Source: a virus
Length of the DNA stretch: 27,447 nucleotides
IMG/VR virus record: IMGVR_UViG_3300045107_000427
Location: 1-27,447 of that record
Strand: one strand, 5' to 3'
Shown here in pieces: positions 3,959-11,870 of the stretch. Position 1 is the first letter of the stretch. Every line of letters begins with the position of its first letter. The notes under the pieces were generated by a model, which saw only the letters and a program-made list of their open reading frames with translations, was not told where the DNA came from and searched no databases. Both the position numbers and the translations under genes were made by a program.

Positions 3959-4205
3959 CAACAACACGTCCGAAAACGGCATCGAGCCGATGATCGACGC
4001 CAAGCAGGCCGCCGCAGCGCTACGCCTGCCGTACTACTGGTTCGCCGACCATGCGATGCGCTCCAAGTACCGGATTCCGCACTACCTGATGGGCGGCCTG
4101 GTGCGCTATCGCCTTTCTGAACTCTCGGCTTGGGCCGCGCGCAGCGCAGCCGTCCAAGACCGTGATGCCCAAGATGCTGCCGCATCTGTCGAGGAGGTTG
4201 AATGA
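3951..4205 (+). CDS. small helix-turn-helix DNA-binding protein (AlpA/excisionase-like)
   Basis: The 84-residue protein starts at the ATG at 3951, overlapping the nuclease stop by eight bases, with a GGAGG site at about 3939-3943. Residues 14-33 give a MerR/AlpA-type helix-turn-helix (MIDAKQAAAALRLPYYWFAD), followed by a wing-like RIPHYLMGGLVRYRLSEL at 41-58 where the sequence reads G-x-V-R-Y. This is the usual layout of HTH_17 excisionase or AlpA-like regulators. The tail is Ala/Asp/Glu-rich and probably disordered. It could be a transcription regulator, a replication accessory or a directionality factor; no integrase is nearby to favour the last. Fold confident, role open. Confidence 0.7.
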   Translation: MTDNNTSENGIEPMIDAKQAAAALRLPYYWFADHAMRSKYRIPHYLMGGLVRYRLSELSAWAARSAAVQDRDAQDAAASVEEVE

Positions 4206-6481
4206 TCGACTTCAACGACACAAATCAAGCGGTAGAGCACAGTCGGGAGTCAGACCGCGACGAGCTTCGAGTCGAACTGCTCGCACGCCTGGAGTCGGTG
4301 CTGACCACGATGTTCCCGGCAGGTAAGAAGCGCAAGGGCAAATTCCTGATCGGCGACGTGCTGGGAAGTCCTGGCGATAGCCTCGAGGTGGTGCTCGACG
4401 GCGAGAAGGCGGGGTTGTGGACGGATCGTGCCACAGGCGACGGCGGAGACATCTTTGCGCTGATTGCTGCCTGCATTGGGGCCGACGTTCACGCTGATTT
4501 TTCCCGCGTGCTCGACGAGGCTGCCGAACTGCTCGGTCGTTCGCGCTCGGTGCCAGTGCGCAAAGCCAAGAAGGAAGCTCCGGTTGACGAACTTGGCCCA
4601 GCTACGGCCAAGTGGGATTACCACGATGCCGGCGGCAAGCTGATCGCAGTCGTCTACCGCTACGACCCACCCGGTCGCAAGAAGGAGTTCCGCCCTTGGG
4701 ACGCCAAGCGGCGCAAGATGGCACCGCCCGAGCCACGCCCGCTCTACAACCAGCCGGGGATGAAGGATGCTGCGCAGGTCGTGCTGGTCGAGGGCGAAAA
4801 ATGCGCGCAGGCGCTCATCGATGCGGGCATCACTGCCACGACGGCAATGCACGGGGCAAACGCCCCGGTAGAGAAAACCGACTGGTCGCCGCTGGCGGGC
4901 AAGTCCGTGCTGATCTGGCCTGACCGCGACAAGCCGGGCTGGGAGTACGTGACACTGGCAGCGCAGGCAATACTGGCGGCGGGCGCAAAGTCCTGCCACA
5001 TCCTGTATCCGCCCGAAGATGCGCCGCAAGGCTGGGATGCGGCGGATGCCATTGCCGAAGGCTTCGACGTTTCCTCTTTCCTCACCCACGGTCCACGCCT
5101 GCAGATACACGACGTGGCCGACGCCGAGGAGCCGGTGGTCGGCAGCGACGAATCTGTCTGGGGTACAGAGGATGCGCTGGCGCTGACATTCACCCGGCGC
5201 TACCACCGTGACTGGCGCTACGTCGCGGGATGGGGACGCTGGTTGGTGTGGGACGGGCAACGCTGGCGCACCGAGGACACACTGGCCGCCACCGACCTGA
5301 TCCGCAGCGTCTGCCGCCAGACCGCCTTGCGCGCCGACAACCCCAAGGTCGCCGCCAAGCTGGCCAGCGCTGGAACGGTAGGGGGCGTGGAACGGCTGGC
5401 GCGGGCTGATCGCCGGCACGCCGCCACTACCGATGAGTGGGATGCCGATCCGTGGTTGCTCAACACACCCGGCGGCGTGGTCGACCTGAGAACAGGCCGC
5501 CAGCGCCCACATGACCGTGCCGACCGGATGACCAAGATCGCTACGGCCACACCTCGGGGCGAGTGTCCGCAGTGGACGGCCTTCCTGTCCGACATCACCG
5601 GCGGCGACGTCGAGCTGCAGTCCTACCTGCAGCGGATGGTCGGCTACTGTCTGACCGGGGTGACCAGCGCGCACGCGCTGTTCTTCCTGTATGGCACCGG
5701 GGCCAACGGCAAGAGCGTATTCGCCAACGTGGTGGCATCCATCCTTGGTGACTACGCGTCCACCGCGCCGATGGATACCTTCGTCGAAACACGTGGTGAC
5801 CGCCACCCGACCGATCTGGCTGGACTGCGTGGCGCACGCTTCGTCACGGCCATCGAGACTGAGCAGGGACGGCGCTGGAACGAATCCAAGGTCAAGGCCA
5901 TCACGGGCGGCGACAAGATTTCCGCACGCTTCATGCGCCAGGACTTCTTCGAGTTCTTTCCGCACTTCAAGCCGGTCATCGTCGGCAACCACAAGCCCGC
6001 CATCCGCAACATCGACGAGGCAATGAAGCGGCGGATGCACCTGATCCCGTTCACGGTGACGATTCCGCCCGAGAAACGCGACGGCCGCCTGACCGAAAAA
6101 CTGCTCGCCGAACGCGACGGGATTCTGGCTTGGGCCGTGGCCGGTTGCCTCGCGTGGCAGCGCGAAGGGCTGAATCCGCCCACCTGCGTTCAAGCCGCGA
6201 CTGATGAGTATTTCGAGGCCGAGGACGCCATCGGTCAGTGGATCGAGGAGCGCTGCCTGCTCGCCAACACCCACCGTGAAGGCGTGTCCGAGCTTTTTTC
6301 CGATTGGCGCGAATGGGCTGAGCGTGCTGGCGAATACGTGGGATCGGTCAAGCGCTTCTCCGAGCTGATGGCAACCCGAAAGTTCGAGAAGTGTCGGCTG
6401 ACCGGAGGCGCACGCGGCATCGCAGGAATCACCCTGCGACCCAAACCCTATGGCCATGGCTACCCCTATCGCGATGACTGA
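4202..6481 (+). CDS. Toprim/D5-type phage primase-helicase, 759 aa
   Basis: This is the replicative primase-helicase of the phage. Residues about 30-115 are an N-terminal DNA-binding-like region, and about 190-290 hold a Toprim domain with LVEGEKC (Glu198) and the DRD triad at 241-243. A D5_N-like region covers about 330-480. The SF3 helicase motor follows, with Walker A GTGANGKS at 498-505, a Walker B-like FVTAIETE near 547-554 and a sensor-type VIVGNHKP at 592-599. The C-terminus is a DNA-binding-like tail. Length fits P4/D5-family primase-helicases. The start overlaps the previous gene (ATGA). The inverted repeat just downstream is a candidate origin or control site. No CHC2 zinc motif is visible at the N-terminus. 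Confidence 0.9.
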   Translation: MIDFNDTNQAVEHSRESDRDELRVELLARLESVLTTMFPAGKKRKGKFLIGDVLGSPGDSLEVVLDGEKAGLWTDRATGDGGDIFALIAACIGADVHADFSRVLDEAAELLGRSRSVPVRKAKKEAPVDELGPATAKWDYHDAGGKLIAVVYRYDPPGRKKEFRPWDAKRRKMAPPEPRPLYNQPGMKDAAQVVLVEGEKCAQALIDAGITATTAMHGANAPVEKTDWSPLAGKSVLIWPDRDKPGWEYVTLAAQAILAAGAKSCHILYPPEDAPQGWDAADAIAEGFDVSSFLTHGPRLQIHDVADAEEPVVGSDESVWGTEDALALTFTRRYHRDWRYVAGWGRWLVWDGQRWRTEDTLAATDLIRSVCRQTALRADNPKVAAKLASAGTVGGVERLARADRRHAATTDEWDADPWLLNTPGGVVDLRTGRQRPHDRADRMTKIATATPRGECPQWTAFLSDITGGDVELQSYLQRMVGYCLTGVTSAHALFFLYGTGANGKSVFANVVASILGDYASTAPMDTFVETRGDRHPTDLAGLRGARFVTAIETEQGRRWNESKVKAITGGDKISARFMRQDFFEFFPHFKPVIVGNHKPAIRNIDEAMKRRMHLIPFTVTIPPEKRDGRLTEKLLAERDGILAWAVAGCLAWQREGLNPPTCVQAATDEYFEAEDAIGQWIEERCLLANTHREGVSELFSDWREWAERAGEYVGSVKRFSELMATRKFEKCRLTGGARGIAGITLRPKPYGHGYPYRDD

Positions 6482-6488
6482 TCAATCC

Positions 6489-6594
6489 GGGCGAGTGACG
6501 GATTTGACAGGTTTGCTGGTTTACCTCTCACGCGTGCGCGTGTGCATACGTCATGGAGACTTTCCGCAGAACCCGTCACATCCGTCACTCGCCC
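6489..6594 (+). repeat. 23-bp inverted repeat enclosing an alternating pyrimidine-purine tract; candidate origin or control site
   Basis: The left arm 6489-6511 and right arm 6572-6594 are inverted copies matching at 21 of 23 positions, around a 60-base spacer. The outer 15 bases (GGGCGAGTGACGGAT) match exactly. The heptamer GTGACGG recurs: once at 6495-6501 with a degenerate copy near 6504-6510, and as CCGTCAC at 6573-6579 and 6582-6588. The spacer holds 23 bases of perfect pyrimidine-purine alternation at 6529-6551, including CACGCGTG. The element fills the gap between the primase and the RuvC-like gene. Origin, operator, resolvase target and RNA hairpin are all possible; the choice is inference. 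Confidence 0.75.
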
Positions 6595-6616
6595 AGCAAG
6601 AAATGGAGCAATGACA

Positions 6617-7081
6617 ATGACGAACACCATCCTCGCCCTGGACTTGGGCACCACAACTGGCTGGGCGCTGCGCGACAACGACGGCCACATTACCAGCGGT
6701 TCCGAGAGCTTCCGGCCGCAACGTTTCGAGGGCGGCGGGATGCGCTTCCTGCGCTTCAAACGCTGGCTCACCGAGATCAAGCAGTCTTGTGACGGCATTG
6801 ACTGCCTGTACTTCGAGGAAGTTCGCCGCCACGTTTCCACAGATGCCGCCCACGCCTACGGCGGGTTTCTGGCCACGCTTACAGCGTGGTGCGAGCACCA
6901 CCAGATCCCGTACCAGGGCGTGCCAGTCGGCACGATCAAGAAGCATGCGACCGGCAAAGGTAATGCAGGCAAGGAGGACGTGATCGCATCTGTTCGTGCG
7001 CGTGGCCACGCTCCGGTTGATGACAACGAAGCCGATGCCCTGGCACTGCTGCACTGGGCCATCGAGACGCAGGAGGTGTGA
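6617..7081 (+). CDS. RuvC-like Holliday junction resolvase
   Basis: This 154-residue protein has an RNase H-fold resolvase pattern. An N-terminal strand LALDLGTTTGWAL carries Asp9, YFEEV supplies acidic residues Glu67/Glu68, and the C-terminal DDNEADALALLHW supplies Asp136 and Asp140. These match the acidic catalytic set of phage RuvC-like nucleases, which cut branched recombination or replication intermediates. The start at 6617 is preferred over the ATG at 6611 because the GGAG at 6605-6608 is then eight bases away rather than two. The gene follows the primase and the inverted repeat, and the next gene starts two bases after its stop. Confident family, substrate inferred. Confidence 0.82.
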   Translation: MTNTILALDLGTTTGWALRDNDGHITSGSESFRPQRFEGGGMRFLRFKRWLTEIKQSCDGIDCLYFEEVRRHVSTDAAHAYGGFLATLTAWCEHHQIPYQGVPVGTIKKHATGKGNAGKEDVIASVRARGHAPVDDNEADALALLHWAIETQEV

Positions 7082-8043: not shown

Positions 8044-8096
8044 GCGGCCCGTGACGGGGCTTTCCTCCTTTCACCCGTCCGGGCCGCACCCTTTTT
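8044..8096 (+). terminator. second terminator-like hairpin, possible attenuator
   Basis: The arm at 8044-8058 (GCGGCCCGTGACGGG) pairs with 8074-8087 over 14 base pairs with one bulged base, around a 15-base loop. A run of five T at 8092-8096 follows. It ends only 18 bases before the methyltransferase start at 8114, so it may act as a leader terminator or attenuator. The smaller CCCG-TGA-CGGG hairpin at 8048-8058 could compete with the long stem. Confidence 0.55.
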
Positions 8097-8113
8097 GGAA
8101 ACCCGAACTGAAC

Positions 8114-9520
8114 ATGCTCAACGTCGAGTACCGCAAGGTCGAGACGCTGATCCCCTACGCACGGAATCCGAGGACGCACAACGACGAGCAGGTGGCGAAG
8201 ATCGCCGCCAGCATCGTTGAGTACGGCTGGACGAATCCGATCCTGGTGGACGGCGAGAACGGCATCATTGCTGGCCACGGTCGGCTGGCTGCCGCGCGCA
8301 AGTTGGAGCTGGCTGAAGTGCCGGTCATCGAACTGGCTCACCTGTCGCCCACCCAGAAGCGCGCCTACGTGATTTCCGACAACCGCTTGGCGCTCGACGC
8401 CGGGTGGGACGACGCAATGCTGGCGCTGGAACTGGCCGAGCTGTCCGAGGCCGGGTACGACCTTGCGCTCACCGGCTTCGACGATGCCGAGATCGAGGAA
8501 CTGCTCGCCACCGATGTGGCGGTTGGTGACGAAGCCAGCGACGCGCAGGAGAGCGACGAGCCCGATGCGGCAGACGATGTCCCGGACGCTCCGGCGACGC
8601 CCGTCTCTCGGCCCGGCGATGTCTGGCAGCTGGGTGCTCATCGCGTCATCTGCGGGGACGCTGCCGATGCCGAGGTGGTCGCGGCCCTGATGGCTGGCGA
8701 GCAGGCGGCGCTCTGCTTCACCTCGCCGCCCTACGGCAACCAGCGCGACTACACGAACACCATCATTGATTGGGATGCCCTGATGCGCGGCGTATTCGCC
8801 CAGCTGCCGATGGCCCAGACCGGGCAGGTGCTGGTCAATCTTGGGCTGATCCACCGCGAGCAGGAAGTCATTCCGTACTGGGATGCCTGGCTCGACTGGA
8901 TGCGCAGCCAGGGCTGGCGGCGTTTCGCCTGGTACGTCTGGGATCAGGGGCCGGGCTTGCCCGGCGACTGGAATGGTCGGCTCGCACCGGCCTTCGAATT
9001 CGTCTTCCACTTCAACCGGAAGGACAGCGAGGCGCGCCGCCCCAACAAGATCGTGCCCTGCATCTACGCCGGGCGCGACACCCATTTGCGCGGCGACGGC
9101 ACCAGCGCCGGCGGGATGCGCAACAAGGATGGCAGCAAGACTGCGTGGAACCACGTGGGTACGGTCACCCAAGACTTCCGCATTCCCGACTCGGTGATTC
9201 GCATCATGCGGCACAAGGGCAAGATCGGTCAGGACATCGATCACCCGGCCGTGTTCCCGGTGGCGCTGCCCCAGTTCGTGCTGGAGTCCTACACCGACGA
9301 CGGCGAGATCGTCTTCGAGCCCTTCTGCGGATCGGGCACGACGCTGCTCGCAGCCCAGCGTACCGGGCGAGTGACCCGGGCAACGGAGATCGCCCCCGAG
9401 TACGTCGACGTGACGGTCAAGCGCTTCCAGCAGAACTTCCCCTATGTGCCGGTGACCCTGGTGGCCACCGGGCAGACATTCGAGGAAGTTGCCACCGAAC
9501 GATTGGGAGCACAGGCATGA
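8114..9520 (+). CDS. ParB-DNA methyltransferase fusion, SPPY (N4-cytosine type)
   Basis: The 468-residue fusion has a ParB/Srx-like domain at about 1-130, with the AGHGRLAA box at 53-60 and a conserved VISDNR at 86-91. An acidic linker covers about 135-162. A beta-class methyltransferase domain follows: catalytic motif IV TSPPY at 203-207 precedes the AdoMet-binding FEPFCGSGTT at 401-410, and HPAVFP lies at 378-383. SPPY is typical of N4-cytosine enzymes. Such fusions are common in phages and probably modify phage DNA against host restriction; the ParB part may aid DNA binding. The ATG at 8114 is chosen because upstream codons overlap the terminator-like hairpin. The ribosome site is weak (GGAA, 13 bases away). 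No restriction partner is visible. Confidence 0.85.
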   Translation: MLNVEYRKVETLIPYARNPRTHNDEQVAKIAASIVEYGWTNPILVDGENGIIAGHGRLAAARKLELAEVPVIELAHLSPTQKRAYVISDNRLALDAGWDDAMLALELAELSEAGYDLALTGFDDAEIEELLATDVAVGDEASDAQESDEPDAADDVPDAPATPVSRPGDVWQLGAHRVICGDAADAEVVAALMAGEQAALCFTSPPYGNQRDYTNTIIDWDALMRGVFAQLPMAQTGQVLVNLGLIHREQEVIPYWDAWLDWMRSQGWRRFAWYVWDQGPGLPGDWNGRLAPAFEFVFHFNRKDSEARRPNKIVPCIYAGRDTHLRGDGTSAGGMRNKDGSKTAWNHVGTVTQDFRIPDSVIRIMRHKGKIGQDIDHPAVFPVALPQFVLESYTDDGEIVFEPFCGSGTTLLAAQRTGRVTRATEIAPEYVDVTVKRFQQNFPYVPVTLVATGQTFEEVATERLGAQA

Positions 9521-10785
9521 GCATCTCCTGGCTCGCCGACAAGATCGAGCAGTGGCCGACCGCAAGGCTCGTGCCCTATGCCCGCAACGCGCGCACCCAT
9601 ACCGATTCGCAGGTGGCGCAGATCGCAGCCTCGATTGCGGAGTTCGGTTTCACCAATCCGATCCTCGCGGGCAGTGACGGCGTGATTGTTGCCGGGCATG
9701 GCCGACTGGCCGCCGCCCAGAAACTCGGCATCGAAACGGTGCCGGTGGTGGTGCTCGACCACCTGACGCCAACCCAGCGCCGGGCCCTGGTGATCGCGGA
9801 TAACCGCATCGCCGAGAACGCCGGCTGGGACGAGGCGATGCTGCAGGTGGAGTTGGCAGCCCTGCAGGATGACGACTTCGATCTGACCCTGACCGGTTTC
9901 GACGCCGATGCCCTGGCTGATCTGCTCGCCGGCGGCGAGACGACCACCGAGGGGCAGACCGACGAGGATGAAGCCCCCGAGGTGCCGGAGACGCCGGTGT
10001 CACGACCGGGCGATGTCTGGATTTGTGGCGAGCACCGGGTGCTCTGCGGCGACGCCACCGATGCCGATGCCTACGCCAAAGTGCTGGGCGACGAGTTGGC
10101 CAGCATGGTGTTCACCGACCCGCCCTACAACGTGAACTATGCCAACAGCGCCAAGGACAAGATGCGCGGCAAGAACCGCGCGATCCTCAACGACAACCTT
10201 GGCGAGGGTTTCTACGATTTCCTGCTGGCGGCACTGACACCAGCTCTGGCGCACTGCCGGGGCGGCGTCTACGTGGCGATGTCGTCCAGTGAACTGGATA
10301 CGCTGCAATCTGCCTTCCGCGCTGCCGGTGGCCACTGGTCGACTTTCATCATCTGGGCCAAGAATACCTTCACCCTGGGCCGGGCCGACTACCAGCGCCA
10401 GTACGAGCCTATCCTCTACGGCTGGCCGGAGGGTGGCGAGCGTCACTGGTGCGGCGACCGCGATCAGGGCGACGTCTGGCAGATCAAGAAACCGCAGAAG
10501 AACGATCTGCACCCGACGATGAAGCCAGTGGAACTGGTGGAGCGGGCGATTCGAAATTCGAGTAGTCCGGGTGACGTGGTACTAGACCCGTTCGGTGGAT
10601 CCGGCAGCACGCTGATTGCCGCCGAGAAGTCGGGGCGGCGGGCGCGGCTCATCGAGCTCGACCCGAAGTACGTGGATGTGATCGTGCGCCGCTGGCAGGA
10701 TTTCAGCGGCGGTGAAGCCACCCGGCTTGGGAATGGCGTCGCCTTCGATCAGGCGGCGAGTTCTTCTTCGACAATTTCGCAGTGA
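9517..10785 (+). CDS. ParB-DNA methyltransferase fusion, DPPY (N6-adenine type)
   Basis: This 422-residue protein repeats the architecture of its upstream neighbour. The ParB-like domain (about 14-137) has VAGHGRLAAA at 58-67 and VIADNR at 92-97. A short acidic linker follows. The methyltransferase has motif IV TDPPY at 200-204 before DPFGGSGS at 357-364, again beta-class order, plus HPTMKP at 332-337. DPPY is typical of N6-adenine enzymes, so the pair probably marks two different bases. The start overlaps the previous stop (ATGA, 9517-9520). The last 37 bases overlap the convergent minus-strand gene at 10749. The Ser-rich end (AASSSSTISQ) may be non-essential. Confidence 0.86.
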   Translation: MSISWLADKIEQWPTARLVPYARNARTHTDSQVAQIAASIAEFGFTNPILAGSDGVIVAGHGRLAAAQKLGIETVPVVVLDHLTPTQRRALVIADNRIAENAGWDEAMLQVELAALQDDDFDLTLTGFDADALADLLAGGETTTEGQTDEDEAPEVPETPVSRPGDVWICGEHRVLCGDATDADAYAKVLGDELASMVFTDPPYNVNYANSAKDKMRGKNRAILNDNLGEGFYDFLLAALTPALAHCRGGVYVAMSSSELDTLQSAFRAAGGHWSTFIIWAKNTFTLGRADYQRQYEPILYGWPEGGERHWCGDRDQGDVWQIKKPQKNDLHPTMKPVELVERAIRNSSSPGDVVLDPFGGSGSTLIAAEKSGRRARLIELDPKYVDVIVRRWQDFSGGEATRLGNGVAFDQAASSSSTISQ

Positions 10786-11238: not shown

Positions 11239-11787
11239 TCACGAAACTCGGTAAATGCGCTCGCCACCCTCGGGCTTTTCCGAGGTGATGGTGAGTCCGA
11301 GCTTTTTCTTGAATGCCCCGGCAAAGGTGCCCCGCACCGTGTGCGCCTGCCAGCCGGTGGCCGCGCAGATTTGGTTGATGGTGGCTCCCTCCGGTCGCTG
11401 CAGCATCTGGATCACGGCGGCCTGCTTGCTGTTCTCGCGGGTGCGGGGCTTGCCCTCGACGCCGACCTTGAGCAGCCGCTTGGCCGCGTCCTGTTTTTCT
11501 TGCGCCCAGTTGGCCTCTGCGGCCGACACGGCGGCCTCGACCTCGGGGTCGGGGTGGATGGTGGCCGGCGTTGGCCGGGCGCGCCCCAGGGCGTCGTAGC
11601 CCTCGGCCGCGACGAACCAGTCGGTGCTGTCGCGGGTGATCAGGGCCTTGTTGAACAAGCCCTCCAGCACCTTGGTGCGGGCACCGCCCTTGATATTGTC
11701 GGGGAACCATTCGATCTTGCCGCCGGTGTGTTCGATGGCATAGGCAAGGATGGCGTGCTGGGCCGGGGTCAGTTGGATGGTGGACAT
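11239..11787 (-). CDS. DUF3489-containing protein, 182 aa
   Basis: Minus-strand gene from ATG at 11787, with AAGGAG about seven bases upstream. The frame runs on to 11850, but that stretch is the leader repeat, so the later start is chosen. The C-terminal 70 residues match DUF3489, including LQRPEGATINQICAATGW, then HTVRGTFAGAFKKKLGLTI and a GGERIYRV end. This is a winged-helix-like fold probably binding DNA. The N-terminal 80 residues (QLTPAQHAILAYAIEHTGG onward) look like a second helical or winged-helix unit. A transcription regulator or DNA-binding accessory protein is plausible, but the family has no established function. It is the middle of three genes with the same leader. Confidence 0.78.
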   Translation of the reverse strand: MSTIQLTPAQHAILAYAIEHTGGKIEWFPDNIKGGARTKVLEGLFNKALITRDSTDWFVAAEGYDALGRARPTPATIHPDPEVEAAVSAAEANWAQEKQDAAKRLLKVGVEGKPRTRENSKQAAVIQMLQRPEGATINQICAATGWQAHTVRGTFAGAFKKKLGLTITSEKPEGGERIYRVS

Positions 11788-11821
11788 TTGATGCTCCTTC
11801 GTGGTGGTTGATGGTGTGGTC

Positions 11822-11870
11822 ATGAACGCGCTGTTCGAGAGTGAAGCCAAGCGCTTTCTGCTTCTTTTTC
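11822..11870 (-). promoter_or_regulatory. conserved leader copy B, candidate promoter and operator
   Basis: This copy lies upstream of the DUF3489 gene, beginning 35 bases from its start codon. It shares the core with copies A and C and keeps the AAGCGCTT palindrome of copy A (11849-11856). The -35-like and -10-like hexamers have the same 17-base spacing. Its far end touches the stop codon of the preceding DUF6900-like gene (11869-11871), so each gene appears to carry its own promoter despite tight packing. Confidence 0.6.

Follow-up and report, generated by a model that had tools for sequence, protein, structure and literature searches.

A predicted phage replication origin with inverted iterons and an alternating purine/pyrimidine core, downstream of a D5-type primase-helicase gene

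The DNA under study is a 27-kb virus record from IMG/VR (27,447 nucleotides, hereafter the window). In the gap between a D5_N/DUF5906 primase-helicase gene (Pfam) and a gene for a RuvC-like resolvase (phrog_159), two neighbours already recognised in a reading made from the sequence alone, lies a large inverted repeat, hereafter the element. The features of the locus are as follows (strand in brackets):

4202..6478 (+): D5_N/DUF5906 primase-helicase, 759 aa, predicted iteron-binding initiator (Pfam, PHROGs 6088, fold match)
6257..6472 (+): C-terminal winged helix of the primase (residues 686-757), the domain predicted to read the iterons (column agreement, structure model)
6350..6352 (+): codon of K717, predicted to set specificity from the start of the recognition helix (K/R covariation)
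6489..6594 (no strand): whole element, two inverted iteron pairs around a core, predicted replication origin (alignment in 51 distinct relatives, covariance model)
6496..6504 (+): iteron 1, TGACGGATT, left outer (9-bp repeat unit of arm 1, arm alignment)
6505..6513 (+): iteron 2, TGACAGGTT, left inner, degenerate (arm alignment)
6514..6569 (no strand): core between the iteron pairs (alignment of relatives)
6529..6551 (no strand): strictly alternating purine/pyrimidine tract, CACGCGTGCGCGTGTGCATACGT, 23 nt, predicted to be Z-DNA-prone
6570..6578 (-): iteron 3, TGACGGGTT, right inner (arm alignment)
6579..6587 (-): iteron 4, TGACGGATG, right outer (arm alignment)
6611..7078 (+): RuvC-like resolvase (phrog_159), a neighbour judged functionally untied to the element and kept where primase and iterons are replaced

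The sequence-only reading had described inverted arms of 23 bp, and these indeed match at 21 of 23 positions (6489-6511 and 6572-6594); when extended to 6489-6513 and 6570-6594, they match at 23 of 25 positions, with 56 nt between them. This inverted repeat is far above chance: it is the best of the window, with a score of 19 versus 11 for the next one, and the best repeats of 12 dinucleotide-shuffled windows score 11 to 13. Similarly, the alternating run at 6529-6551 has the 23 nt ascribed to it and is the longest of the window, the next one measuring 12 nt and those of the shuffles 14 to 18 nt. The heptamer GTGACGG, said to be repeated in the arms, occurs there three times (at 6495 on the + strand, and twice on the - strand in arm 2), and a fourth copy is degenerate (TGACAGG). 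The element folds as a single strand with z values of -7.5 (+ strand) and -9.3 (- strand). The GC skew of the window makes a turn near 6-7 kb that is too weak to be used. A 735-aa open frame runs antisense to the primase (window 4250-6457, - strand) and probably results from GC-rich codon use.

A DNA similarity search of the element against GenBank phages gave one 26-base chance match and nothing else, and relatives were traced through the primase instead. A primase search of viral contigs gathered 80 loci. Related phages devoid of any inverted repeat at this place would have spoken against the sequence-only reading. Of about 79 relatives, however, 75 have the same kind of element, with arms, inner flanks and alternating core, between primase and RuvC; it could be aligned in 51 distinct ones. 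Arm sequences vary by clade (GTGACGGATTTGACAGG, CTGACGCAGCTGACGC, CTGACGGATCGGACGG), and both arms change together. Searches with a covariance model usually returned a single strong match in a phage record; G009 and G012, both long records, gave two each. Genome contigs and viral contigs were also scanned with the element as a pattern, and a strict recount retained 170 loci where a primase relative lies next to it; pattern matches located inside genes and lacking a primase were considered as chance and left out of the counts. In every one of these 170 loci the element follows the 3' end of the primase. A RuvC relative is present in 143 of them, and the element is kept in 20 loci that have no RuvC relative nearby, for each of which the downstream sequence extends over 1.2 kb or more. 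Four loci (L201, L214, L219 and L262) have identical element and downstream ORF sequences and represent the same phage region; they come from MAGs labelled Clostridia, Aeriscardovia and Eggerthellaceae, and from the isolate Vreelandella rituensis. Contamination is the probable reason for its presence in these MAGs.

The arms are built from a 9-bp tandem iteron, TGACGSANN, present in two to three copies per arm (three for instance in AcaML1 and L203) and inverted between arms. Our strict tandem-iteron test did not flag the window itself, because its iteron 2 is degenerate. Across the four copies, base 6 of the iteron reads GGGG in 52, CCCC in 44 and CTCC in 12 of 121 non-redundant loci, an agreement that is not due to hairpin pairing, since the copies within one arm are direct repeats. 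Mismatches between arms are G-T in 39 cases, A-C in 31 and other in 55, which is a weak wobble bias. This pattern points to arms that act as double-stranded protein-binding sites, and not as an RNA stem.

An RNA hairpin controlling the resolvase had nevertheless been one of the first proposals: a stem in the transcript would control resolvase expression, or end the primase transcript. The very stable fold, the double changes observed in 9 of 16 consensus pairs and the location between two co-directional genes are all in keeping with it. However, direct repeats inside one arm covary much like opposite arms, the above mismatches show little G-U bias, no T run follows the stem, and the element persists in the loci without RuvC. 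Moreover, the iteron base, shared by the four copies, covaries with the C-terminus of the primase and not with RuvC (see below). We consider this proposal very unlikely, and discarded it. Membership of a structured RNA family was also rejected, given the direct-repeat covariation, the lack of a strong G-U bias, and scans of the element with Rfam 15, in which no family matched beyond noise.

The helicase part of the primase has a fold match to AsfvPrimPol and to the poxvirus D5/E5 helicases. Its residue 717 is a lysine in 56 of 56 loci with TGACGG iterons, and an arginine in 62 of 65 loci with TGACGC iterons, so that K/R717 covaries with iteron base 6 in 118 of 121 loci. The 12 primase columns that agree best with the iteron base all fall within residues 686-757; agreement culminates at 0.975 for residue 717, and reaches at most 0.775 in residues 1-640 and at most 0.744 inside RuvC. 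Seemingly informative "RuvC" columns, with high mutual information, were discounted because they precede the RuvC start and are the element's own DNA. Independence of the changes was assessed on a tree built from primase residues 1-640, leaving the C-terminus out. On this tree, the iteron base switches at least 12 times, and in 7 of 7 supported independent pairs residue 717 changes in the same direction as the iteron base (sign test, p about 0.016, which is at its floor and is uncorrected for the choice of 717 as the best of 758 columns). The C-terminal region is modelled as a winged helix of helix-helix-wing topology, in which residue 717 opens the third helix; among PDB structures it comes closest to the DNA-bound RFX winged helix, at modest significance (E 0.0018). 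The Pfam D5_N match, the winged-helix model, the covariation and the swaps described hereafter lead to the in silico prediction of a D5_N/SF3-type initiator with an iteron-reading C-terminal domain.

Natural swaps between phages bear on the same point. Compared to relatives with TGACG-type iterons, L136 and L157 are 84 to 87% identical over the helicase and 86 to 88% over RuvC, but only 40 to 46% over primase residues 686-757; their iterons are GGTGACC-type, and their core is still alternating. Since the K-type and R-type groups themselves diverge in this region, low C-terminal identity between two relatives is in itself not unusual, and we place the weight of this swap in the iterons having changed along with the C-terminus. 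A more drastic situation is found in L149, L156 and L160, where RuvC is 82 to 83% identical to that of the window, the primase is non-orthologous (28% identity over the helicase), and the iterons are TTGGCAG-type. From these comparisons, iterons follow the primase and, within the primase, its C-terminal domain, and RuvC is judged to be a bystander to the element.

These data also bear on the proposal that the palindromic arms form a cruciform cut by the neighbouring RuvC-like resolvase, the gene of which adjoins the element in most relatives. The element is kept in the 20 loci without RuvC, iterons are replaced together with the primase while RuvC is kept, and no RuvC column tracks the iterons well; the joint co-occurrence and covariation that would designate a Holliday-junction resolvase target was not found. 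Such a resolvase substrate is strongly disfavoured, to the point of having practically no chance of being correct. Separately, L149, L150, L156 and L160 all combine a kept RuvC, a different primase and TTGGCAG/CTGCCAA repeats in the gap, an arrangement that we interpret as a second, separate origin type with the same layout.

The core has features of its own. In 59 of 59 loci of at least 6 kb, the element holds the longest alternating run of the whole locus, of 16 to 25 nt and mostly 23. In the alignment, 96% of the core differences among relatives are transitions, versus 36 to 45% elsewhere in the element, an excess that the aligner may favour; run lengths are independent of the alignment. 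Among 173 loci examined, alternation goes beyond that of shuffled cores in 147 of the 157 whose locus GC is 0.60 or higher, and in 0 of the 3 whose locus GC is below 0.55; the cores of these three are AT-rich. On the strength of these comparisons, the alternation of the core is under selection. As AT-richer phages have AT-rich cores, an AT-rich element seems to be replaced by the alternating GC tract in the GC-rich ones. The tract is probably kept because it would adopt a non-B form (Z-DNA or cruciform), or distort easily under superhelical stress. We propose further, although with more doubt than confidence, that in GC-rich phages of Proteobacteria a selected alternating tract, flipping to Z-DNA or extruding under negative supercoiling, replaces the AT-rich unwinding element. 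If true, this would be a left-handed or shear-based way of opening an origin; a search for Z-DNA together with iterons and primase origins returned no paper in the literature collection that it covered.

Known origins were then used for comparison. In a sample of 12 annotated phages with related primases, each scored against 200 shuffles, inverted tandem iterons are present 3' of the primase in 7 (Sfi21, AcaML1, phi105, GMA4, KiSi, AmM-1 and phi-adh), and in 0 of 200 shuffles each. Among the 7, those of Sfi21 and phi-adh are annotated as origins:

NC_000872, 34487-34784: origin of Streptococcus thermophilus phage Sfi21, 302-bp noncoding region
AJ131519, 13084-13469: rep_origin of Lactobacillus phage phi-adh

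The Sfi21 element, described as an independent replication origin (PMC6356513), resembles ours in that it is directly 3' of a phage primase and has two tandem iterons per side, inverted, over about 100 bp overall. It differs by its iterons (AGTTACTT, of 8-bp period) and by its AT-rich core without an alternating GC tract, and its primase belongs to a different branch from that of the window. In phi-adh, the annotated origin also has inverted tandem repeats 3' of the primase (ORF771), but these are 10 to 11 bp long and of several types, and the core is AT-rich. The SaPI rep-ori and the SCCmec Cch2 iteron region likewise go with a helicase initiator: according to PMC7581432 (citing Ubeda et al. 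2007), Cch2 of SCCmec and SaPI5 Rep are of D5_N type, and the C-terminal domain of SaPI Rep and of the D5_N helicase Cch2 reads iterons directly downstream of the gene or operon. In contrast with our element, they belong to pathogenicity islands and cassettes, not phages, and the Cch2 iterons are AAGTG. SaPI iterons flank an AT-rich core. The alpha protein of satellite phage P4 is a primase-helicase fusion that acts as initiator and binds DNA by its C-terminus, and the phage of the window would similarly use such a fusion. The P4 origin, ori1, needs a second site, crr, whereas the element is as a rule single-copy per phage record; a P4-type origin with a second essential copy was rejected on this count, the covariance model giving a single strong match per record as a rule.

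The element shares with the SaPI/Sfi21 type its position directly downstream of the predicted initiator gene (170 of 170 loci) and its short tandem iterons in inverted sets. It does not have the AT-rich core, which is usual, but not clearly defining, for that type: mean core GC is 0.57 to 0.61 in GC-rich phages. By analogy, we propose that it works like these rep-ori systems, but with an alternating GC tract instead of AT-rich DNA as core.

Two other uses of a site bound by the primase were weighed against this analogy. The iterons might be an operator only, by which the primase or another regulator represses or times downstream genes, replication beginning elsewhere. The covariation of iterons with the C-terminal winged helix supports such binding, not use as an origin, and the element does lie in an intergenic gap ahead of a gene. 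However, it stays 3' of the primase even where the downstream genes differ, its counterparts in Sfi21 and phi-adh are annotated as origins, and two inverted pairs around a specialised core exceed the needs of an operator, so that we regard this scenario as quite unlikely. Alternatively, the primase may recognise a single-stranded or cruciform-extruded hairpin as a priming site. The element has a long, near-perfect hairpin potential on either strand, and primase activity is expected in the same polypeptide; yet the arms are iterons with a 9-bp direct-repeat periodicity, the modelled C-terminal domain resembles double-strand readers, and more distant relatives keep the iterons but not a matching core stem. 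Little room, hardly a few chances in a hundred, is left for this possibility.

We favour reading the element as the origin at which replication of the phage starts, bound by the primase-helicase that the phage itself encodes, and hold this to be very probable. An origin was among the first proposals made for this site, and it is now strongly supported, at the level of sequence, by position, iteron-primase covariation and natural swaps; the architecture of the element and the selection on its alternation belong to the same basis. As to origin activity, we infer the following steps. The upstream primase-helicase, a D5/SF3-type AAA+ hexamer, would bind the element via its C-terminal winged helix. 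As the iteron pairs point in opposite senses, two helicase rings facing each other would be loaded, one on each flank of the core. The core, whose physical role would lie in this step, would be opened between the rings, the helicases would travel outwards from it, and the fused primase would then start DNA synthesis. Counting against an origin, 5 of the 12 sampled annotated phages with related primases have no such array 3' of the primase, an alternating GC tract melts poorly, and in the window iteron 2 is degenerate and the GC-skew turn weak.

Such an origin would be defined at the sequence level for a large group of mostly uncultivated phages and prophages of Beta-, Gamma- and Alphaproteobacteria. 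It would come with a concrete specificity code between initiator and origin, K717 with TGACGG and R717 with TGACGC, and natural proteins suit the testing of this code. The conserved GC-rich alternating core also raises the question of how an SF3/D5-type helicase opens an origin without an AT-rich element.

Finally, eight loci in host chromosomes contain the full element (arms TGACGCATCGGACACAG, alternating core) without primase or RuvC:

L236, 5434-5526: orphan copy
L257, 6117-6209: orphan copy
L207, 3326-3418: orphan copy
L220, 792-884: orphan copy
L240, 956-1045: orphan copy
L192, 135-227: orphan copy
L184, 3679-3771: orphan copy
L244, 2059-2151: orphan copy

Each of the eight genomes has one strong copy. 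In 7 of the 8, no primase relative was found at E 1e-10, and the element of these seven host genomes therefore needs another explanation. Orphan copies may be relics, origins of satellites that depend on a helper phage, or anti-phage decoys like the Sfi21 element, which is reported to lower phage plating. Since iterons follow the C-terminal domain, the origin type could predict which phages, satellites and orphan decoy copies use each other's replication proteins. A search for the orphan element on plasmids found none. When the flanks of orphan copies are aligned, the element may point either way with respect to them. Several copies adjoin a DUF3489 gene in defence-type islands, and the islands carry type III or type I restriction genes, a ParE toxin, and DUF2924 with a serine recombinase. 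The window itself encodes, at 11239-11850 (- strand), a phage DUF3489 protein of the same family as the orphan-adjacent gene (phrog_10315); DUF3489 may be linked to this type of origin. A last configuration was seen in genome G027, where L412 holds the element twice (about 6571-6864), with about 80 bp between the copies and no primase match beside them; nearby are two ParB-methyltransferase-like genes that resemble those of the window at 8051-9520 and in the frame ending at 10785.
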